A stretch of 64,000 nt of DNA from Artemia franciscana (Eukaryota; Arthropoda; Branchiopoda; Anostraca; Artemiidae): NCBI RefSeq assembly GCF_032884065.1, contig NC_088866.1, positions 58,487,866 to 58,551,865 of the forward strand, written 5' to 3'. This document shows, one piece after another, positions 6,481 to 61,690 of the stretch. The translations under genes were made by a program, and so were the position numbers. The notes under the pieces were generated by a model, which saw only the letters and a program-made list of their open reading frames with translations, was not told the origin of the DNA and ran no database searches. The number at the start of each line of letters is the position of its first letter. Position 1 is the stretch's first letter.

Positions 6481-7036
6481 GTATTAAAGTGATTAGTGCT
6501 ATGTACGAGAATAACACTGCTGCGGTCAAGATAAGAAATAAGGTAGGAGTGCGGTAAGGTAGGAATTAAGCTGGGTTATGCTCTTTCCCCCTTTATATGA
6601 ATCATTTTTATAGATTTTGTCTTAAGGAGCACAGGAAACGCAATGGGAGACCACGGAATCAAATGGGGAGGAAACAATCTCCTGGACTTAGATTATGTTG
6701 ATGATCTAAGCATCCTAGGTGAAAGTTTGAGCAAAATGAATGAACTTTTAGAGGTTTCGCGAGTTCAGGGTGCTAGAATAGGTTTGAAAATTAATGTTAA
6801 GAAGACTAAGTCACTAAGGCTAGGAATAAGTAAAGATGAAAACGTGACGCTGGGTAACGGAAAGATTGATCAGGTGGGCAGCTTCACTTACCTTGGTAAC
6901 ATTATTAGTAAAGACGGTGTGAGCACTGAAGAAGTTAAAAGTAGAATATCCAAGGCTCAGGGTTAAAAGAAAATTAGAAGAATAGGAAGATAAGTCTGAA
7001 AACCAAGATTAAAATATTGGGGGTAATAGTGACGAC
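6481..7036 (+). mobile_element. RTE-like LINE copy B, RT core segment
   Basis: The RT resumes with VISAMYENNTAAVK (about 6490-6531). The catalytic box is YVDD at 6694-6705 instead of the YADD of copy A. It continues through LKINVKKTKSLRLGISKDEN and TYLGNIISKDGVS, then stops at about 6966 and reaches the nested insertion at 7037. An open frame survives from 6643 to 6966. YVDD is a known tolerated RT variant, but the many stops elsewhere make the copy inactive. Confidence 0.8.
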
Positions 7037-11739: not shown

Positions 11740-12640
11740 GGTAAGCTAGGACGATGAAATTTGGCATTCATATCAGGAACTGGACCAGATTAAATTAGAA
11801 ATAGTCGTTTTCCCGATTTGACCATCTGGGGGGGGGGGTGAGTGGGGGGCCCGTTAATTCAGAAAAAATGGAAAAATGAAGTATTTTTAACTTACGAACG
11901 GTTGATCAGATCTTAATGAAATTTGATGTTTGGAAGGATATCGTGTCTCAGAGCTGTTATTTTAAATCCCAACCGGATCTGGTGATATTGGGGGAGTTTT
12001 GGGGGGGAACCTAAAATCTTGGAAAACACTTAGAGTGGAGGGATTGGGCTGAAACTTGGTGGGAAAAATAAGCACAAGTCCTAGATAGATGATTGACATA
12101 AACAGAACGGATCCGCTCTCTTTGGAATAGTTGGGAGGGGCAGGGGGTGATTCTGAAGAGTTGGAAAAATGAGGTATTTTTAACTTACGAACGGGTGATC
12201 GGATCTCAATGAAATTTGATATTTAGAAGGATATCGTGTCCCAAAGCTCTTATTTTAAATCCCGGCCGGATCTGGAGACATTAGGGGGAGTTTGGGGTGA
12301 CCTAAAATCATGGAAAACGCTTAGATTGGAGGGTTTGGGCTGAAACTTGGTGGGAAAAATAAGCACAAGTCCTAGATACATGATTGACATAACCAGAACG
12401 GATCCGATCTCTTTGGGGTAGTTTGTGGGCGGGGGTTGATTCTGAAAAATTAGAAAAATGAGGTATTTTTAACTTACGAACGGGTGATCGGATCTCAATG
12501 AAATTTGATATTTAGAAGGATATGGTGTCTAAAAGCTCTTATTTTGAATCCCGACCGGATCTGGTGACATTGGGGGGAATTTGGGGGGACCTAAAATCAT
12601 AAAAACGCTTAGATTGGAGGGATCGGGATGAAACTTGGTA
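11740..12640 (+). repeat. ~290-bp tandem repeat, about three units
   Basis: The phrase GAAAAATGA(A/G)GTATTTTTAA starts at 11871, 12164 and 12453, giving periods of 293 and 289. Each unit continues with TTACGAACGG, TTAATGAAATTTGAT, CCGGATCTGG and a GTGGGAAAAATAAGCACAAG block, and contains a G-run that varies in length. It follows a LINE 3' fragment directly and may derive from its 3' UTR. Confidence 0.85.
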
Positions 12641-16400: not shown

Positions 16401-17670
16401 TTAAATAAAAAAATCTACTGAAAGTAAGGAGCGTCATTAAAACTCAAACGAACAGAAATTATTCCGTATTTGAAAGGGAATGTCCCCTCCTCAACGCCTC
16501 GCTCTTGACGCGAAAGTTTTTTATTGTTTTAAAAAATAGAGCTGTAAGAAAGAGTCAAAATTTAGCAAAGAGCGAGGCGTTGAGGAGGGGACAGCCCCTT
16601 TCATATACGGAATAATTTCTGTTAATTTAAGCTTTAATGTCGCTCCTTACTTTCAGCAGAAGAAACTTGTTTTTTTATTTAATTTCTTATCGTTTTTTAA
16701 ATAATGTCAGGAAATCCGACCCTACCTCCACGGAGAAATCTCCTCACCATGGTTCAACACTGGTGAAAATTTGCCTCGGATAATTACTCTTAACCACTCC
16801 GCGCATAAAATTGAGACGGAAAAGAGAAATCAAGACATATAAAAAGAATTTCGTACAAGAATTCTGGCGAATTCCCGCAGCGTATAATTTCCCCTGACAA
16901 GTTCACTCCCTGGAAATTTCCCTCCCCATGGAAAATTACCCCGTTAAAAAAAAAAACAGAGAAAATTTTCCCCTCCCACCCGAAAATGTATTCATGCATC
17001 CCAATAACAAATACTATGCGTAAACAATGGGCAAATTTTGTAAGTTAAAGACCTTTCCCCTCGGGCTGTGGGGGAGGGGGAGGTCATGCCATACCCAAAG
17101 GCATAGTTATTGGACCTTTCAACTACGGTTAACAAAATGTCTATATCAAAACCTTGATCGGAAAAAAATGGCAGGGGAGGCGGTCTTTTTCGGTCATTCA
17201 AAAAAACACTAGAACTTTTAATTTCCATTCGAATGAGTTCTCTTCCGATATTCTAGGACTACTGGGTCGATACCATCACCCCTGGGAAAAATAAACGAAT
17301 AAAAACGCATCCGTGATCTTTCTTCTGGCAAAAATACAAAATTCCACATTTTTGCAGACAGGAGCTTGAAACCTATTCAACAGGGATTTCTGATACGCTA
17401 AATCTGATGGTGTGATTTTCATTAAGATCACTTGACTTTCAAGTGGTGATTCATCCCTTTTTCGAAAATCAGGAAAATTTTCTCAGGTTCGTAACCTTTG
17501 ATGGGTAAGACTAAACTAAATGCAATTTATGTATTTGAAATCAGCATAAAAAGCAGATTCTTTTAATGTATCTATTGGTATCTAAATCCTTTTTTAAACC
17601 GTTTTCAGAGTCTTGGCTACTATTGAGCTGGATCGCTCCTTACTCATAGTTCGTTACCGCGAACTGTTTG
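16401..17670 (+). mobile_element. Composite foldback element, internally deleted copy
   Basis: The foldback occupies 16401-16682. It is joined to the 3' half of the element, lacking most of the middle module present at 18326-18900. The copy ends in the hairpin AGTTCGT-TACC-GCGAACT near 17647-17667. Diagnostic blocks include GTAAGGAGC, CTTTAGC-AAGAGCGAGG, AAATTTCCCTCCCCATGG and GACCTTTCAACTACG. Confidence 0.8.
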
Positions 17671-17689
17671 AACCGCAGTTTTCTCAGAT

Positions 17690-18029: not shown

Positions 18030-19768
18030 TTAAATAAAAAAAACAAGTTTTTTGAAATGAAAGTAAGGAGCGACAATAAAACTTAAAACGAACAGAAATT
18101 ACTCCGTATATGAAAGGGGCTTTTCCCCCTCGACACCCCGCTCCTTACGCTAAAGTTTTTTATTGTTTTAAAAAGTAGAGTTGCGAGAAAGAATCAAACT
18201 TTAGCGCAAGGAGCGGGGTGTCGAGGAGGAAAAGCCCCTTTCATATACGGAGTAATTTCTGTTCGTTTTAAGTTTTAATGTCGCTCCTTACTTTCATTTC
18301 AAAAAACTTGTTTTTTTTTATTTAATTTCTGAAAGTTTTTGAATTAATGCATGTCTGATTTTGACTCTCCGTACATAAATTATTAAAATGAAATTTGCAT
18401 ATTAATTCTTTTTTTGGCTAAATGGCTTTCTCTTAGTTTTGATCAGACGATTTGAGAAACAAGGGGTGGGGAAGGAGGCCTAGTTGCCCTCCAATTTTTC
18501 GGTTACTTAAAAAGGCAACTAGATCTTTTAATTTTTAACGAACGTTTTTATTAGTAAAAAAATACGTAACTTAAGAATTAACTTACGTAACAAACTTTTA
18601 TATACTTGTATTTTTGATTATATATATGAAAGGGTTGGTCCCCTCGTTAATACCTTGCTCTTCACACTAAATCTTGTTTTGTCCCAATTCTTTGAGAATG
18701 ACCCCTGAATCAGAAAGGCCTAGAATAAATAGTTGAAATTACTTAAAAAAATTTTAGCATAAAGAGCGAAGTATTTATCTCCTCCTAAATACCTCGCTCT
18801 TTATGCTAAAGTTTTTTTTTAAAATCCCTCATATGCGTAATAATCTCTGTTCGTTTTAAGTTTTAATGCTTCTCCTTACTTTCAATTGAAAAAAAAATTT
18901 TTCATGTTTATATTTTCATTGTTTTTTCATAGTAATGCTAGAAAGTCCTGCGCCCTTTGCATTGAATTTCTCTTCCCCCATGAAATATTCCTCCAAGGAA
19001 AGATCCTCCCATATAGCCCCCTCCCCTGAACCCCACACCCAAACCACAAAAATCCCCCTGATAACGTCGGTACACTTCCCAGTAACTATTACTGTATGTA
19101 AACATTGGTCAAAGTTTGTAACTTGCAGCCCCTCTCCCAGGGACTGTGGGGGGTAAGTCATCCCCAAAGACATAGTTATTATGGTTTTTGACTATTCGGA
19201 ACAAAATGGCTATCTCAAAATTTTGATCCGTTGACTTTGGAGAAAAAATGAGCGTGGGAGGGGGCCCAGGTGCCCTCCAATTTTTTGGTCACTTAAAAAG
19301 GGCACTAGAACTTTTTATTTCCGTTAGAATGAGCCCTCTTGCAACGCTCTAGGACCACTTGGTCGATACGATGACCCCTGGGAAAAAAAAAAAACAAAAA
19401 ACAAATAAACACGCACCCGTGATTTGTCTTCTGGCAAAAAATACGAAATTCCCCATTTTTGTAGATTGGACCATGAAATTTTTTCTATAGGGTTCTCTGA
19501 TACGCTGAATGCGATGGTGCGATTTTTGTTAAGATCCTATGACTTTTAGGGGGTGTTACCCCCTATTTTCCAAAATAAGGCAAATTTTCTCAGGCTCTTA
19601 ACTTTTGATGACAAAGACTAAATTTGATGAAACTTATATATCTAAAATCAGCATAAAAACCCAATTCTTTTGATATATCTTTTAGCATCGAAATTCCGTT
19701 TTTTAGAGTTTCGTTTAATATTGAGCCGGGTCGCTCCTTACTACAGTTCGTTACCACGAACTGTTTGA
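18030..19768 (+). mobile_element. Composite foldback element, full-length copy
   Basis: Parts in order: foldback 18030-18325 with arms of about 125 bases, TTAAATAAA at the left tip and GTAAGGAGCGAC near it; an intermediate region with GGCTAAATGGCTTTCTC; a second inverted module at about 18620-18890; a G/C-rich region with TTCTCTTCCCCCATGAAATA; the GAACCCCA and ACTAGAACTTTT blocks; and the 3' hairpin ACAGTTCGT-TACC-ACGAACTGT near 19742-19763. No coding frame is shared between copies. Confidence 0.85.
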
Positions 19769-32990: not shown

Positions 32991-34681
32991 TTAAATAAAA
33001 AAAAGTTTTTTTAACTGAAAGTAAGGAGCGACATTAAAACTTAAAACGAACAGAAATTACTTCGTATATGAAAGGGGCTTCTTCCTCATCAATGCCCCGC
33101 TCTTTACGCTAAAGGTTGACTCTTTCTCTCAAATTTTCTTTTTAAAACAGTAAAAAACTTTAGCGTAAAGAGCGGGGCGTTGATGAGGAAGCAGCCCCTT
33201 TCATATACGAAGTAATTTCTGTTCGTTTTAAGTTTTAATGTCGCTCCTTACTTTCAGTTAAAAAAAACTTGTTTTTTTTATTTAATTTCTGAACGTTTTT
33301 GAAGCAATGCATGTTTTGATTTTGGCTCTCAACAGAGGAATAATTAAAACGAAATTTGCATTTTTTTTTTTTTTTTTGGCTAAATGGCTTTCTCATAATT
33401 TTGATCGAATGATTTTGAGAAAAAAAGAGCAGGGGAGGAAGCCTAGTTGCCCTCCTATTTTTTGGTTAATCAAAAAGGCAACTCGAACTTTTAATTTTTT
33501 ACGAATCTTTTTATTAGTAAAAGATTTACGTAACTTATAGATTAGCTTACGTAAAGAACTTTTGTATTCTCATGTTTTTATTACATATATGAGGGGGTTC
33601 GCCCTCTCGTCAGTACCTCGCTCTTTACACTAAAGCTTAAAGTTTGTCCCAATTCATTAAGAATGACCCCTGAATAACAAAATCCGTAGAATAAATGGTT
33701 GAAATTACTAAAAATACTTTAGCGTAAAGAGCAAGGTATTAGGAGGAGGTGAGCCCCTCATATGCGTAAAAATTTTTGTTCGTTTTAAGTTTTAATGCTG
33801 CTCCTTACTTCCAGTTGAAAAAACTTTTCGTATTTATTTTTTCATTTTTTTTTTAATAATGCTAGAAAATCCTGCGCTCTCTTCATGGAAATTTTCTTCC
33901 CCCATGACAAATTCCTCGATGGAAATTTCCCCCAACATATACCCCTCTTGTCAACCCCTCCCCCAACCAAAAAATCCCCCTGCAAACGTCTATACACTTC
34001 CCAATAAGCATTACTATATGTAAGCACTGGTCAAAGTTTGTAACTTGTAGCCCCTCCTACGGGGACTGTGGGGGAGTAAGTCATCCCCAAAGACATAGTT
34101 ATAAGGTTTTTCGACTACGCTGAATAAAATGGCTATCTCAGAATCTTGATCCGTTGACTTTGGGAAAATAATTAGCGTGGGAGGGGGCCTAGGTGCCCTC
34201 CAATTTTTTGGTCACTTAAAAAGGGCACTAGAACTTTTCATTCTGTTAGAATGAGCCCTCTCGCAACATTCTAGGACAACTGGGTCGATACGATCACCCC
34301 TGGGGAAAAAAAACAAACAAACACGCATCCGTGATCTGCCTTCTGGAAAAAAATACGAAATTCCTCCTTTTTTTTAGATAGGAGCTTGAAACTTCTACAG
34401 TAGGGTTCTCTGATACGCCGAATCTAATAGTGTGATTTTCGTTAAGATTCTATGACTTTTAGTGAGTGTTTTCCCCTATTTTCTAAAAAAAACGCAAATT
34501 CTCTCAGGCTCGTAACTTTTGATGGGTAGGACTAAACTTGATGAAACTTATATATTTAAAATCAGAATTAAAAATTAATTCTTTTGATATATCTCTTAGG
34601 ATCGAAATTCCGTTTTTTAGAGTTTTGGTTACTATTGAGCCGGGTCGCTCCTTACTACAGTTCGTTACCACGAACTGTTTG
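32991..34681 (+). mobile_element. Composite foldback element, full-length copy
   Basis: The foldback is 32991-33285: left arm to about 33115, spacer of about 45, right arm from about 33158. The second inverted module lies near 33590-33810 (CCTCGCTCTTTACACTAAAG against CTTTAGCGTAAAGAGCAAGG). The C-rich TGGAAATTTCC region follows near 33880-33970 and the 3' hairpin is at about 34657-34678. It shows the same order of blocks as 18030-19768 and 56517-58250. Confidence 0.9.
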
Positions 34682-35324
34682 AAAGGCTTAAAACCATAAA
34701 AGATCTTCCACTGAAATTTCCATGCTCGAAAATTATCACGCTAGTGTTTAATATCCCCCTCCTTTATACTTCCCTGCCTTTTCGCTTTTGCAATTGGAAA
34801 GCAAAAAAAAAGCTTCGAAAAAACTACAAGTGAAATTAATTTATTTGAGCACAAAGCTGATTCTGTAATGTTAGAAGCTATTTACTTTCAGTTTGACACT
34901 AAAATTATTTACGAAAAAAATTCTTGGAAATTATGTAAAAGTGCTTGATACCCGAAAGTGCCTTCTTTTTCTTTCTCCTTTTCCCCAGCCCTGGCCGGTC
35001 ACTGGAACATCGTAGGGGTTCTGAAATGGATAACCTTCAGAGGCTCTCGAAATTAGTGTTTTATCACACTCTCCCCTCCCCCCTGTAAAGGTGTGCATTA
35101 ACTGGTGACTGGTTTGATGTTGCATAACATACTTCACACAAAATTTCCAAATGAAAAGGCGATTGGTTCACAATTCAAACCTGCTTACAAATATAATAGT
35201 CGAAACCGTCACAATATTATTTTAGGATTTTTTTCAGCAGATATTTCTGAGCCTGGAAAGTTTTGGTTTCTTCCCAATACCTTTCATCTTTTTCAAGTTC
35301 TTTCTGACTTTTCTGTATTCCTAG
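34682..35324. other. Unassigned intronic sequence
   Basis: A CACTGGAACATCGTAGGGGTTCT stretch near 35000 loosely resembles the dispersed repeat at 16141. Otherwise nothing is recognised. Confidence 0.35.
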
Positions 35325-37314: not shown

Positions 37315-37640
37315 AATCAAACAGTTCGTGGTAATGAACTTTAGTAAGGAGCGACCCGACTCAATAATAATCAAAACTCTAAAAAATGGAATTTTGATAG
37401 CAATAGTTACATCAAAAGAATCACATTTTTACGCTGACGCTAAAGTACGTCTCGCTCTTTACGCTAAAATTCTTTATTGCTTTAGAAAGTAGAGTTGTGA
37501 GAAACAGTCAAACTTTAGCGTAAAGAGCGAGGCGTTGAGGAGAGGAAAACTCCTTTCATATACGGGATAATTTCTGTTCGTTTTAAGTTTTAATGTCGCT
37601 CATTACTTGCAGTTGAAGAACTTGTTTTTTTTATTAATTT
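37315..37640. mobile_element. Composite-family fragments: reversed 3' end then half foldback
   Basis: 37319-37430 is the - strand 3' end of a composite element (hairpin, GTAAGGAGCGACCCG, AATGGAATTTTGATA). It is fused at about 37435 to a + strand foldback fragment with CTTTACGCTAAAA, CTTTAGCGTAAAGAGCGAGG and a T-rich end at 37640. Confidence 0.75.
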
Positions 37641-52464: not shown

Positions 52465-54335
52465 TTTCGTCATGGAAAGGCAGTGTGGTCTTCGAAGTTA
52501 TCCTTTTTTGAACTAGTTTTTTTTTTTTGTCGAAGCAAATTTTTTTCGAAGAATTGTAATTTTGGTAGATTGTTGCTCTGAAAATAGTCATAGTTCCGCC
52601 ATTCCTGAAACACAAATTTCCCCTTACCTTAAAAAGTTCCATTAACATCTCCCACCACAGAAAATAATTGAAGTTTCAACTATATTGGAAAACAAGGTAT
52701 ATTTACCGAACTACGTTTAGAATTCATTACCTTTTAGTGGAACCTACCGACTAAACGTGTGATATTGCATAAAATAGAAAAGTGTAAAATATATAAAAAT
52801 TATAATAAATTTATATGTAATAGTTTTTCTGCGAGTGAACAAAAAATTGCTACCTAACATCGTTATATAATTTATCTAGCAACTTAAATCATTGTTGGAG
52901 TGTTTGAAACTAAGAGTGTAAGTGAAAGGAACGAAGTATCATGGATATCAAAATACATATATGAAGAAATGATAAAAAAGAGGAGAAAAAGTGGTTTGTT
53001 TAAGATAGCCATTTTTTAAATTTCCTTGGAGGATATCTCCTGAGAAGGCATAAAAAATTTGTATGTATAAAAAGTATCCAAACTATCTATGTATCCAAAC
53101 CTTTTTTTAATCCAAAATGTAGTTGACATTTCATTAGTGTTTAATAAACTGTAAGTGGTAAAGGCTATTTATTAGTCTATTGACTAATTAGAAACTAATA
53201 AATATTAAAAACTAGTTAAAAACTTACTAAAAAAATATTAAAATTATTAATGAATTGAAACCATTTTATTAGTCGCAAAACAAAATCTGAGAGGGTAACT
53301 ATACTTCCCCTGCTACCTCCAATTAACTCTGTGGTTATTTATAAAACTAATTTGTTATTAAATGAAAGCAAAATTCAGGCCTGGTAAAAAAAAACGGAAA
53401 GCAAGCCTTATAGAATTTATTTTTGAATTGGAGAAAGGCCAAATACTTTGCTACTTCTTCGTTCTTTCCTAAGTCATTTGATATTTTACCCCGACCCCTT
53501 GAACTCACTTCAAAATGCTAATTCCAAACAAAAGTCTACCATGTTGAAATCATAACAGATTTTCATTTCATTTCAACTAGTATACAGCAGTGAAACATCC
53601 CAACCGGGGTTTGTAACTTTTCAATATATTATGGTAGCCACAAGATTTTCTTCTAAATTGAGAATCCATGTGCACTAAACAAGTGTAAATAACCACCTTT
53701 TTCGAAAACGCGTTGGAACGATTAACCCCATTTACGGTTCAATATTATTGGACGTAGTTGTGGTTTGTGGTTTTAACTGAGAGTATTTTAATTACTCAAA
53801 TTTTGCATTGTTTTTAGCTCAATCAATATTTTTATTACCAAATTACAAATGACTAACATCATTTTTATACACTCCTAATAAAGGTGTTAATGCCAGATTT
53901 GCCTCTGACTCAATCGTACTATCTGTCTTGGCTTTTCTACAATTAGCCACGGCTTGATGCCCACAACTATTCGATTTTAATTCAGTCCATATGCATTCAG
54001 TCCATATTAATTCAGTCCATATGGATTCTTGAAAATAGTCGATAGTAGACAAGATCAGTGCTCTTGGTTCAAGCATATTAGCCTAGATAATTTCTAAAAC
54101 TTCAAAAGCTTTTAATACAGTTTTAATTCAAAGGTATTTGAAAAAATTATTTTTTTGCAAAGGAAAGGTTTCTTTATTTGGTTTCATTAATTGGCTTTAA
54201 GTACCGTAAGAAAAATAATCTACAACTAATAGGCTAATATTATCCATCAATCCTTATCAAAATTGCACTCAAGCATCCTTTAATCGACTTTTCTGGCTGA
54301 CTCTAGCATTCCCAGATGTAATATGTAAGAAATCC
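52465..54335. other. Unassigned intronic sequence
   Basis: AT-rich; no gene recognised. ATTCAGTCCATATG is repeated three times near 53980-54022. Confidence 0.4.
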
Positions 54336-56040
54336 AACAGTTCGTGGTAACGAACTGTAGTAAGGAGCGGCCCGGCTCAATAGTAACCAAAACTCTAAAA
54401 AATGAAATTTTGATATCAATAGCTACATCAAACGAATCGCATTTTAATGCTGATTTTAAACATATAATTTAATCAAGTTTAGTTTTAACCATCAAAAGTT
54501 ACGAGCCTGAGAAAATAGGGGAAAACAACCCCTAAAAGTCATAGAATCTTAACGATCAGAATCTTAACGAATCACACCATCAGATTCAGCGTATCAGAGA
54601 ACCCCAATGTAGAAGTTTCAAGGTCCTATCTTCAAAAATGTGGAATTTTGTATTTTTTGCCAGAAGGCAGATCACGGATGCGTGTTTATTTGTTTGTTTG
54701 TTTTTTGTTTTGTTTTTTCCAGGGGTTATCGCATCGACCCAGTGGTCCTATAATCTTGCGAGAGGGCTCATTTTAACGGAAATGAAAAGTTCTAGTGCCC
54801 TTTTTAAGTGACAAAAAAATTGGAGGGCACCTAGGCCCCCTCCCACGCTAATTATTTTCCAAAAGTCACCAGATCAAAATTCTGAGATAGCCATTTTATT
54901 CAGCGTAGTCAAAAAACCTTATAACTATGTCTTTGGGAACGAGTTACTCCCCCACGGTCCCCGTGGGAGGGGCCACAAGTTACAAACTTTGACCAGTGCT
55001 TACATATAGTAATGGTTATTTGGAAGTGTACAGACGTTTTCAGGGGGATTTTTAGATTGCGGGGGAGGAGTTGAGAAGAGGGGGATATATTGGGGAAACT
55101 TTCCTTGGAGGAATTTTTCATGGGGGGAGAAAATTTTCATGAAGGGAGCACAGGATTATCTAGCATTATTTAAAAAAATACAACGAAAAAATAAATATGA
55201 AAAAGTTTTTTTAACTGAAAGTAAGGAGAAGCATTAAAATTTAAAACGAACAGAAATTATTACGCATATGATGGGCTCACCTCCTCCTAATACCTCGCTA
55301 CTTTTAAAGCTAAAGTATTTTTAGTAATTTCAACTGTTTATTCTACGGCTTTTGTGATTCAGTGGTCATTCTTAAGGAATTGGAAGAAAATTTAAGCTTT
55401 AATGTAAAGAGCTAGGTTCTGACGAGGGGGTGAACCCCTTTGTATACGTAACAAAAACAAGAGAATACAGAAGTTCGCTACGTAAGCTAATTTGTAAGTT
55501 ACGTATATCTTTTACTAATAAAAACGTTTGTAAAAATATTAAAAGTTCTAGTTGCCTTTTTAAGTAACCAAAAATCGGAGGGCAGCTAGGCCTCCTCCCC
55601 CGCTCCTTTTTTCTCAAAATCACTCGATTAAAACTACGAGAAAGCTATTTAGAAAAAATAAATAAATATGCAAATTTCGTTTTAATTATTCATCTGCGGA
55701 GAGCCAAAATCAAAACATGCATTGATTCAAAAACGTTCAGAAATAAAATAAAAAAAACACTTTTTTAAACGGAAAGTAATGAGCGACATTAAAATTTAAA
55801 ACGAACAGAAATTACTTCGTATATGAAAGGAGATACTTCCTCATCAACGCCCTGCTCTTTACGCTAAAGTTTTTTACTGTTCTAAAAAGTAGAGTTGAGA
55901 GAAAGCGTCAAACTTTAGCGTAAAGAGCGGGGCGTTGATGAGGAAGCATCTTCTTTCATATACGAAGTAATTTCTGTTCGTTTTAAGTTTTAATGTCGCT
56001 CCTTAATTTCCGTTAAAAAAACTTGTTTTTTTTTATTTAA
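54336..56040 (-). mobile_element. Composite foldback element, full-length, reversed
   Basis: The 3' hairpin (ACAGTTCGT / ACGAACTGT) is at 54337-54358. It is followed in reverse by GTAAGGAGCGGCCCGG, the middle modules and the foldback (about 55743-56040) ending at TTATTTAA. It is the mirror partner of 56517-58250. Confidence 0.9.
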
Positions 56041-56516
56041 TTAAAACAAAGACTTATCTGGTCACGTATTAGCTAAAACAATTAGGTGAATGCTCAACTA
56101 ATGTATAATGAGGAAAGTACACCAAATTTAGGAAAATTGAATTTGCATGTAATTTCAATCTGCGATAAATTGAGAAAGGGTAGTTTTTAGGTATAAAGGG
56201 TTGTAGGGGTTGTATGACCAACCTTTTTTTGCTCCAAGGGCCGTTTTATTTTTTTAAAGATTTATTGAGTCTTCTTGACCTTTTATATATTTTACCGAGT
56301 ACTATATCCTCAGTGACTTCATTTGAGTCACATTCGAGACCATTTAACCGTTTTGTGGGACTTCTGGTTCTCAAATAGGTCTTAAGCAGCATCAGTGAAT
56401 AAAAATGAACTTTTAGGGGTAGAAATAATGACAGCTAAAACAAATGATAGTGGCCGCGTTGCAATGCTGCGAAGTCTCAATGGCATTCTTGGGTTTTGTT
56501 GTTGCTTTTTCCACAA
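56041..56516. other. Spacer between two head-to-head composite elements
   Basis: 476 bases with no recognised feature, forming the loop of a potential 1.7-kb-armed inverted repeat. Confidence 0.6.
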
Positions 56517-58250
56517 TTAAATAAAAAAAACGAGTTTTTTTAACTGAAAGTAAGGAGCGACATTAAAACTTAAAACGAACAGAAATTACTTCGTATATGA
56601 AAGAGGCTGCTTCCTCATCAACGCCCCGCTCTTTACGCGAAAGTTTGACTCTGTCTCTCAATTCTTCTTTTTAAACCAGTAAAAAACTTTAGCTTAAAGA
56701 GCGGGGCGTTGATGAGGAAGCAGCCTCTTTCATATACAAAGTAATTTCTGTTCGTTTTAAGTTTTAATGTCGCTCCCTACTTTCAGTTAAAAAAACTTGT
56801 TTTTTTATTTAATTTCTGAACGTTTTTGAATCAATGCATGTTTTGATTTTGGCTCTCCGCAGAGGAATAATTAAAACGAAATTTGCATTTTTTTTTTTTT
56901 GGCTAAATGGCTTTCTCATAATTTTGATCGAATGATTTTGAGAAAAAAAGGAGTGGGGGAGGAAGTCTAGTTGCCCTCCGATTTTTGGTTAATTAAAAAG
57001 GCAACTAGGCAACTAGAAATTTTAATTTTTTACGAATATTTTTATTAGTAAAAGATTTACGTAACTTATAAATTAGCTTACGTAAAGAACTTTTGTATTC
57101 TCATATCTTTATTACATATATGGGGGGGTTCGCCCCCTTGTCAGATCCTCGCTCTTTACACTAAAGCTTAAATTTGTCCCAATTCATTAAGAATGACCCC
57201 AGAATCACAAAAGCCGTAGAATAAATAGTTGAAATTACTAAAAATACTTTAGCGTAAAGAGCGAGGTATTAGGAGGAGGTGAGCCCTCAAATGGGTAATA
57301 ATTTCTGTTTGTTTTAAGTTTTAATGCTGTTCCTTACTTCCAGCTGAAAGAACTTTTTCATATTTATTTTTTCATTGTTTTTTTTTTAAATAATGCTAGT
57401 AAATCCTGCGCTCCCTTCATGGAGATTTTCTTCCCCCATGACAAATTATTGTTGGAAAGTTCCCCCAGAATATACCCCTCTTCTCAACCCCTCCCCCAAC
57501 CAAAAAAATTCTCCTGAAAACGCCTGTACACTTCCCAATAACCATTACTATATGTAAGCATTGGTCAAAGTTTGTAACTTGTTGCCCCTCCCATGTGGAC
57601 TGCGGGGGAGTAAGTCGTCCCCAAAGACATAGTTATAAGGTTTTTCGACTACGCTGGATAAAATGGCTATCTCAGAATTTTGATCCGTTGACTTTGGTAA
57701 AATAATTAGCGTGGGAGGGGGCCTAGTTGCCCTCCAATTTATTTGGTCACTTAAAAAGGGCACTAGAACTTTTCATATCTGTTAGAATGAGCCCTCTTGC
57801 AACATTCTAGGACAACTGGGTCGATACGATCACCCCTGGGAAAAAAAAAAAAAAAAAAAAAAAACAAAAAAAAAAACAAAAAAACAAATAAACACGCATC
57901 CGTGATCTGCCTTCTGCCAAAAAATACAAAATTCCACATTTTTGTAGATACGAGCTTGAAACTTCTACAGTAGGGTTCTCTGATACGCTGAATCTGATGG
58001 TGTGATTTTCGTTAAGATTCTATGACTTCTAGGGGGTGTTTCCCCCTATTTTCTAAAATAAGGCAAATTGTCTCAGGCTCGTAACTTTTGATTGGTAAGA
58101 CTAAACTTGATGAAACTTATATATTTAAAATCAACATTAAAATGTGATTCTTTTGATGTAGGTATTGGTATCAAAATTTCATTTTTTAGAGTTTTGGTTA
58201 CTATTGAGCCGGGTCGCTCCTTACTACAGTTCGTTACCACGAACTGTTTG
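56517..58250 (+). mobile_element. Composite foldback element, reference full-length copy
   Basis: Blocks in order: foldback 56517-56813 (TTAAATAAA tip, GTAAGGAGCGAC, CCCCGCTCTTTACGC and its mirror). Next is a TTTTTGGCTAAATGGC region. The second inverted module has CTCGCTCTTTACACTAAAG (57148-57166) opposite CTTTAGCGTAAAGAGCGAG (57247-57265). A C-rich TTCTTCCCCCATGACAAATT region follows. An A-rich tract lies at 57841-57890, then TTCTCTGATACGCTGAATC, then the terminal hairpin at about 58227-58248. There are no conserved ORFs, no tRNA-like promoter and no LTRs. By elimination it is a nonautonomous DNA element of uncertain class. Confidence 0.9.
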
Positions 58251-58842
58251 ATTAGTGGCCACAGAATGGTCTCACCATAGAGGATGATCTAAGTTTCAAA
58301 GTCGTCAAATTCCATTAGTTGGGTAAATCAAGAAGCGATTTGATCCTTACTTTCTTCTATGCATGTTGGTCGCAAAAAGGATGGGCCTTATATAATAACA
58401 TTGACAACATATTGACTTGAGTTATAAACACAATGAAAGCGATCAGTGAGTTGAGCAAAACGAGTTAAAAAGATTAAGTTATATAAAGCCCAATCCGTTT
58501 TGTGTCCCACAATTTTTGTTATACGAGTGTGCAAAACCATATCCGGGATTTTTGATGGGGGGGGTCCTTCATAAAACAACTCAAAAGCATATAAAGGTAG
58601 TTTTTCGAGTCAGACAAAACTTTAGGGGGAGGGTCCTCAAACCCCTTAGCCCTCTTGGATACGGCATCGTGTATATATTTATATATCTTGCGTGGGGTGA
58701 GAAGTCATAATTTTGTTCGTTCCTGATTTTTATTTGTTTTATGCTCTTCTTTATTTCCTTCTTGTTTCTACTCTAAAGCATTATTTTTACTTTTTAAGGG
58801 ATAAATAAGTGAATGAGAAAATGTAAGAAACATTCCACAAAC
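58251..58842. other. Unassigned intronic sequence
   Basis: Between the composite element and exon 1; nothing recognised. Confidence 0.4.
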
Positions 58843-60901: not shown

Positions 60902-60929
60902 GATATATATATATATATATATATATATG
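60902..60929. repeat. (AT)n microsatellite
   Basis: Short alternating A/T tract. Confidence 0.9.
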
Positions 60930-61690
60930 TAAATAAGTTGTCTGTGTGTTATGTCTGTCGAGTGACGTCATGTTTGTGTGTCGACTGACGTCATGTTTGT
61001 CGACTGAAGAAACTACAGACCGGGACATCGGGACACAAATGACAACCGGGACACCGGGACATCTATCTATATCTATCTTATATATATAAAAATAAGTTGT
61101 CTGTGTGTGTGTGTGTCGAGTGACGTCATGTTTGTGTGTCGACTGACGTCATGTTTGTTGATTGACGAAATTACAAACCGGGACATCAGGACACAAATGA
61201 CGACCGGGACACCGGGACATCTATATATATAAAAATAAGTTGTCTGTGTGTCGAGTAACGTCATGTTTGTGTGTCGACTGACGTCATGTTTGTTGATTGA
61301 CGAAATTACACACCGGGACATCGGGACACAAATGACGACCGGGACACCGGGACATAGGGAATATAAATGACAACCGGGACACTCAAAGAGAAAGCGACCG
61401 GGACACAAGGAATGTTCGATTAGCAATCACCATCAACAAAGCACCGGGACACAAATGACGACTGGGACACAGGGAATATAAATGACGACCAGGACACTCA
61501 AAGAGAAATTACAGACCGGGACACCGAAACACCAATGACGACCGGGACAAAAATGACGACCGGGACACCGCGACACAGGGAATATAAATGACGACCGCGA
61601 CACTCAAAGAGAAATTACAGACTAGGACACCGGGACACAACTGACGACCGGGACACAGGGAAACAACAACATCGGGGACGCCGGGGGGCA
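60930..61690. repeat. TGACGTCA / CGGGACA minisatellite block
   Basis: Three units start with ATAAGTTGTCTGTGTG (60932, 61092, 61226). Each carries GTCGA(G/C)TGACGTCATG motifs: TGACGTCA at 60963, 60986, 61121, 61144 and 61279, with one site mutated to TAACGTCA in the third unit. The rest is an irregular array of GACGACCGGGACACCGGGAC, CACAAATGAC and GGAATATAAATGAC phrases to about 61690. Confidence 0.9.

Follow-up and report, generated by a model that had tools for sequence, protein, structure and literature searches.

The ends of Helitron2 and Helentron transposons are thought to act through short hairpins combined with subterminal repeats. In the layout given for Helitron2, a hairpin directly follows the 3' repeat, which is placed 20-30 nt from the end, and another hairpin contains the 5' repeat; an inverted orientation of the Rep-helicase is also known there (PMC3627910). 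For Helraiser, the published study describes the hairpin as a terminator and supports read-through to a later terminator experimentally (PMC4778049). Helitrons are given as 8.81% of the published Artemia franciscana assembly (PMC11492255), and the element family described here may make up part of that content.

We have analyzed an element within a 64,000-nt stretch of the A. franciscana genome (the window, to which positions refer unless stated otherwise). It is quite probably a non-autonomous member of the Helitron superfamily of rolling-circle transposons, of the Helitron2/Helentron (HINE) kind, in which the 5' hairpin has grown to a perfect palindrome of ~290 nt.

Structure of the element

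The boundaries of the element were set by comparison of flanks, and its parts are as follows.

56517..58251, plus strand: whole element, TTAAAT...TTTGA, 1,735 bp, with a host A at the left and a host T at the right
56517..56815, plus strand: foldback head FB1, arms of ~130 nt and a loop of ~37 nt, recognized by inverted repeat, fold and concerted arms
56549..56561, plus strand: left subterminal repeat AGTAAGGAGCGAC, 32 nt from the 5' tip
56769..56781, minus strand: the AGTAAGGAGCGAC 13-mer with 1 mismatch, within the FB1 right arm
56905..57008, plus strand: middle segment M1, a direct repeat of M2
57110..57369, plus strand: second foldback module FB2, left arm truncated, right arm homologous to FB1
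57400..57540 (about), plus strand: C-rich middle, read off the sequence
57661..57766, plus strand: middle segment M2, a direct repeat of M1
57841..57892, plus strand: A-rich tract, internal and not 3'-terminal
58213..58225, minus strand: right subterminal repeat (GTCGCTCCTTACT on the plus strand), 26 nt from the 3' end
58226..58247, plus strand: 9-bp terminal hairpin ACAGTTCGT-TACC-ACGAACTGT, a proposed replication terminator

A sequence-only reading had described a composite of a foldback head, a second inverted module, a C-rich middle and a 9-bp hairpin, ending at 58250. All of these parts are present, those that were tested exceed chance, and the end lies at 58251. The FB1 arms (56512-56646 and 56684-56818) are 93% complementary at a spacing of 37 nt, and the head folds at -133.4 kcal/mol (z -32). 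In a majority sequence of 21 copies, to which the element shows 98.2% identity over 1,705 aligned columns (being itself one of the 21), the left end is an essentially perfect 290-nt palindrome. FB2 contains an inverted repeat (57147-57166 and 57247-57266; z -4.1 for the fold of 57147-57266), and its right arm is a direct repeat of the FB1 right arm, at 78%. The 80-nt core of M1 is 79% identical to 57661-57740, and M1 and M2 are 81% identical in the majority sequence (389-504 vs 1139-1256). At the right end the inverted subterminal repeat is followed by the hairpin, whose fold has a z of -3.7; an A/T hairpin that precedes the left subterminal repeat in the predicted fold is not significant (z -0.97).

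The AGTAAGGAGCGAC motif had been placed at both ends in inverted orientation, in the middle, and in the second module. The two end copies are as described. The supposed middle 13-mer is the one in the right arm of the head, and only a degenerate form occurs in the second module. Within the window, AGTAAGGAGCGAC has 28 matches at up to 2 mismatches (0.63 expected; 0 of 100 shuffles reach 28), and the terminal hairpin has 8 at up to 3 mismatches (0.09 expected).

The family forms 19 merged blocks in the window, covering 11,549 of the 64,000 bases; at least ten occurrences had been noted originally. Full copies had been reported at 18030, 32991, 54336 and 56517; there are indeed four long copies, the third of them a minus-strand copy with somewhat different limits. 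Besides the element itself they are listed here with their identity to the majority sequence.

18030..19768, plus strand: long copy, 88.2%
32991..34682, plus strand: long copy, 94.6%
54333..56040, minus strand: long copy, 92.4%

No ORF longer than 91 aa (stop to stop) is found in these four copies, and the first description of the element as noncoding and lacking a conserved ORF was right.

Termini, target site and empty sites

Thirty loci (L001-L030) were fetched as the best-scoring copies, from 40 scored of 15,133 candidates. Both ends were located by a match rule in 23 of them; 21 copies (1.5-1.85 kb) were aligned and 2 were dropped for length. The resulting majority sequence of 1,710 bp provides the consensus from genome-wide copies that had been proposed as a check. 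The aligned full copies all share both tips and diverge from it by 1.5-4.0%, a range that describes these copies and not the age of the whole family, since only the best-scoring copies were taken. The base before the left tip is a host A in 22 of 23 copies. At 42 distinct right ends, which include old copies and L018, the base after TTTGA is T in 26, A in 15 and C in 1, so that the insertion can be written A|TTAAAT...TTTGA|W, with target A|W. In L018 the hairpin end is duplicated: beyond the right end of this family copy lies part of another hairpin end.

Empty sites, also suggested as a check, define these ends. For 6 of the 23 joined flank pairs a paralogous bridging match was found, at 68-95% identity. 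Five are gapless at the junction (L003, L004, L005, L011 and L030, with an identity of only 68-77% for L003 and L030), and in the sixth, L007, a gap of 2 nt lies 3 nt from the junction. Judged from their flanks, four of the six (L004, L005, L007 and L011) appear to have landed in other members of the family. The comparison thus indicates no target duplication greater than 1 bp; a 1-bp duplication of 'A' is formally possible because A is present at both junctions.

These observations bear on the possibility that the element derives from a cut-and-paste DNA transposon of the foldback or MITE type, with no target duplication or one of 1 bp, in the style of Spy. Such an origin would suit the long foldback, the nearly symmetrical placement of the inverted 13-mers (32 and 26 nt from the tips) and the junctions, which are compatible with a 1-bp 'A' duplication. 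However, the tips (TTAAAT vs TCAAA) are not inverted repeats of each other, the right end bears a hairpin whereas the left bears a palindrome, and the target is merely A|W, while Spy elements insert at AAA|TTT. We regard this origin as improbable.

Under the preferred interpretation as a rolling-circle element, a Rep-helicase supplied in trans would nick the left tip, and one strand would be displaced and copied. The process would stop at the hairpin of the right end, ahead of which lies the 3' subterminal repeat, and the strand would be joined into A|W without target duplication.

Copies in the genome

Exact matches to the 39-nt right end number 16,730 in the genome (8,388 + 8,342), three of which fall in the window, and a 32-nt motif of the head arm has 9,875 (4,968 + 4,907); the backwards-pattern controls gave 0 for each. 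The pairing of head arms and right ends was analyzed in the first 100 places listed of each, all on contig C1. Sixty of these head-arm matches make 30 inverted pairs, spaced by 72-74 bp (exactly 73 bp in 28 of 30), and 40 are single. In C1:0-5.0 Mb, 12 of 19 head pairs are accompanied by an exact right end in the expected orientation, at 1.50-1.66 kb, and 8 of 25 single head-arm matches have one at 1.26-1.77 kb. Two more coincidences are wrongly oriented, and both belong to pairs for which a correctly oriented right end exists as well.

The unit might instead be a nest of at least two unrelated mobile modules, a foldback element and a tail element, copied by the abundant canonical Helitron of this genome. 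The units among those listed whose exact head-arm match has no exact inverted partner (40 of 70), the relatedness of the FB1 and FB2 modules, and a similar tail on a different body at locus L064 would all fit such an arrangement. It is, however, hard to square with the 12 of 19 exact head pairs in C1:0-5 Mb that have a correctly oriented exact tail at 1.50-1.66 kb, or with outer tips common to 21 copies. The flank comparison shows the whole unit as a single insertion, and the 3' end of the canonical Helitron (...CAGCTAG) differs from that of the element. We consider this arrangement improbable.

A retroposed element, either SINE-like or LINE-derived, would be expected to resemble the present one in its A-rich tract and high copy number, and a loose A-box-like pattern is matched in the four long copies. 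The A-box pattern and the GTTCGA B-box core are the pol III box patterns. The core is absent from the four copies, a search of Rfam with 54300-58300 gave no match, the A tract is internal and there is no duplication greater than 1 bp, all of which make retroposition very improbable. No tRNA was found in a search of the window, and the viral contigs contain 0 matches to a 34-nt right end. Segmental or tandem duplication, or a satellite, is suggested by the nearness of several window copies to one another and can be dismissed, given thousands of dispersed copies of which those fetched lie on many contigs, with unrelated flanks and defined ends.

Matched evolution of the foldback arms

In the majority sequence the two FB1 arms are essentially identical, differing in the length of one A-run. 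Among the 21 copies the arms differ by 2.8% within a copy vs 4.1% between copies, a contrast reached in 0 of 5,000 permutations. When three further window copies are added (24 in all), differences from the consensus occur in both arms of one copy 26 times, where 3.6 are expected (maximum 16 in 2,000 shuffles); 66 differences occur in a single arm only, and 1 site is altered in both arms in different ways. The FB1 arms evolve in concert. Differences private to one copy are found in one arm in 34 cases vs both arms in 6, five of the latter from one old copy. Private changes being mostly one-armed, the arms are matched between lineages and not visibly homogenised after insertion.

Base pairs changed on both sides number 22 of 101 in 17 copies, compared with 5.6 (sd 1.8) after shuffling, and 0 of 500 shuffles gave as many; slid controls gave 1-6. 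The sequences in this test are few and related, and the structure was derived from one of them. Such paired changes are equally expected from gene conversion and from selection on the hairpin.

One might speculate, with considerable doubt, that these elements belong to a lineage that uses the long foldback as its initiating end. Its palindrome would be renewed during transposition by hairpin-templated copying of arm from arm, keeping the arms matched despite drift, and its head would be common to non-autonomous members and to Rep-helicase elements of the same genome. In a family of thousands, a palindrome of ~290 nt that is matched in the copies analyzed here offers a natural test of the need for a 5' foldback in rolling-circle transposition. 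It also offers a test of whether single-stranded intermediates repair or re-copy the foldback.

Comparison with known transposons

Several features agree with the description of Helitron2 (PMC3627910). At the right end the 3' repeat stands directly before the hairpin, at a distance of 26 nt from the tip; at the left end the 5' repeat is base-paired with a second copy of itself inside the 290-nt palindrome, the element starts with T, and the 5' hairpin shows compensatory changes. It departs from that description in the position of the 5' repeat, 32 nt from the tip rather than 0-2 nt, and in a 5' hairpin far longer than the short ones described (PMC3627910). Like HINE and DINE-1 elements (PMC4067079, PMC7492417), it is non-coding, with subterminal inverted repeats, an inverted partner of the 5' repeat, a hairpin downstream of the 3' repeat, no visible alteration of the target site and a high copy number. 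In the HINEs of mites, by contrast, the 5' repeat is given as 2-4 nt from the tip (32 here) and the 3' repeat as 38-60 nt from the end (26 here) (PMC4067079), and in those of oysters the inverted 5' partner is given as 7-12 bp, compared with an arm of ~130 nt here (PMC7492417). Helentrons and HINEs also use a TT or T-rich target rather than A|W.

With canonical Helitrons (Helitron1) the element shares a 3' hairpin near the end and insertion after A without duplication, whereas its tips, TTAAAT...TTTGA, lack the 5'-TC and CTRR-3' termini. Foldback (FB) transposons have similarly long inverted-repeat arms, but here there is one foldback at one end, while Drosophila Foldback4 is described as having terminal palindromic repeats of >400 bp at both ends (PMC2955051). 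Unlike TIR transposons and MITEs, the element has no terminal inverted repeats and no duplication of 2 bp or more.

The termini and empty sites thus narrow the class, at first called unclear, to the non-autonomous rolling-circle elements of Helitron2/Helentron type. Given the distance of the 5' repeat and the lack of a TT target, formal membership of Helitron2 or HINE is not established, though the element works like either. It is a variant with a giant foldback in place of the short 5' hairpin and not a new class. An incomplete literature search, which did not extend to Repbase entries, gave no account of so long a foldback in a rolling-circle element, and a search for Artemia together with Helitron gave an Artemia assembly among other papers, while the papers listed from broader searches contained nothing on the family. 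Where PMC7492417 and PMC6431247 speak of foldback, and PMC2955051 of Helitron, other matters are meant.

Origin of the composite form

Two shorter forms with both tips occur in the window.

16401..17671, plus strand: single-foldback form (FB-M2-tail), 1,271 bp, same two tips
37317..37637, minus strand: deletion derivative, 321 bp, both tips kept, left tip TTAAT

The 1.71-kb form (FB1-M1-FB2-M2-tail) probably arose from a tailless copy upstream of a second copy, with replication then probably reading through to the terminator of the downstream copy. The repeated modules and the 1,271-bp and 321-bp forms with the same tips would fit an origin by such read-through.

Rep-helicase genes and the search for an autonomous partner

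An autonomous partner sharing both tips had been proposed as a further check. The partial search made here covered the regions after the genes at L051, L052 and L057-L063 and yielded no Rep-helicase element with both tips; no long transposon was found of which the copies could be fragments. The opposite end of such elements was read only upstream of the gene on contig C10, and the sequences at L031-L050 and L053-L056 include just 1.5 kb of DNA on each side of the domain used in the search and so carry little information on ends.

With the PF14214 profile, 150 of 150 scored sequences passed the cut-off, out of 7,436 candidates in the genome. Among the top matches is a young family of canonical Helitrons (20 loci compared, alike), with the Rep motif RGLPHAH. 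Two of its members, L051 and L052, are 99.9% identical over 5,653 bp and were read through to a 3' end of ...CAGCTAG before a TA microsatellite; the family has no tip in common with the element and was rejected as its helper. The Rep-helicase frame of this young Helitron stays open for 1,688 aa, and peptide repeats of the STPR-like type (PF21107) also occur in it.

The PF20209 profile gave 47 matches from 59 candidates. L057 (G000:C4112:10000-17414) is a Helentron, with a frame open for at least 2,382 aa in which an N-terminal ubiquitin C-terminal hydrolase (UCH) domain stands ahead of DUF6570, Rep (RGSPHIH), PIF1 and endonuclease domains. L058 is a Rep-helicase with the Rep motif RGAPHVH and no match to the endonuclease domain; its UCH domain is C-terminal, at the opposite end of the ORF from that of L057. 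The 3' region of L057 is unlike that of the element, and in the regions read the tips of the element are not the 3' end of either family, so that both were set aside. RPA, tried as a marker of Helentrons, gave 3 matches from 6 candidates and hence no amplified copies.

In a third group of Rep-helicases, on contigs C10 and C9, downstream of the gene lies a segment with a palindrome at its end, the arms of which are 312 nt long (98.4%). At L062 this is a palindrome of ~790 bp with nested inverted modules (1716-2505 of that locus), which ends the segment after the Rep-helicase gene. The tip of the segment is colinear with the left arm of the element: an AT-rich tip, an A-run/T-run hairpin, a stretch resembling the repeat, and CTTAAAACGnACAGnAATTA. 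Global alignment of the element head with the palindrome arm scores 61 (mean 16.9 and maximum 45 in 1,000 shuffles), and the DNA adjoining the inner arm also aligns, scoring 57 against a shuffle maximum of 46. In local alignment the head arm scores 31 with L062, a modest contrast given that L058 and L057 also score 23 and 18. By this homology the segment links the head of the element to Rep-helicase elements, without supplying a partner with both tips.

For four of the eight near-full copies of the palindrome-ended segment, a Rep match on the same strand lies upstream, at 4.2-4.9 kb when measured between starts, and the other four have no Rep match among the 149 listed, in a search with the L058-type Rep as sole query. 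Since half of the near-full copies are without a listed Rep match and the 5' boundary is sharp, the L062/L063 segment may itself be a mobile piece. A further 23 copies, at 98-99%, are shorter and have the appearance of non-autonomous derivatives.

Upstream of the Rep-helicase on C10 there is a family tail, correctly oriented. If this gene were the partner, bounded by that tail, the remainder of the interrupted outer copy was predicted beforehand to lie on the other side, and this prediction failed. The DNA beside this tail is a separate high-copy repeat, with 41 near-full matches at 98-100% (40 scored of 1,489 candidates), of which by eye only the C10 copy lies near any listed Rep match. Because the far flank proved unrelated and the tail-side DNA is a separate repeat, the C10 gene is not claimed as the partner. 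Family sequence at L060 and L061 is read as nested insertions, and a tblastx comparison of the majority sequence with five Rep-helicase loci found only the family DNA in L060 and no coding origin.

Other repeats in the window

Fragments matching the PF00078 reverse transcriptase, below the curated cut-off, occur at 1551-2000 and 6601-6966, and a search of 840-1268 found no protein family. A minisatellite at 60904-61656, composed of TGTCGACTGACGTCA units and AT tracts, resembles the DNA beside the canonical Helitron at L052 and is probably a Helitron remnant. A 289-bp tandem repeat of 2.7 copies is found at 11853-12639, and its unit resembles the left flank of the family copy at L002.
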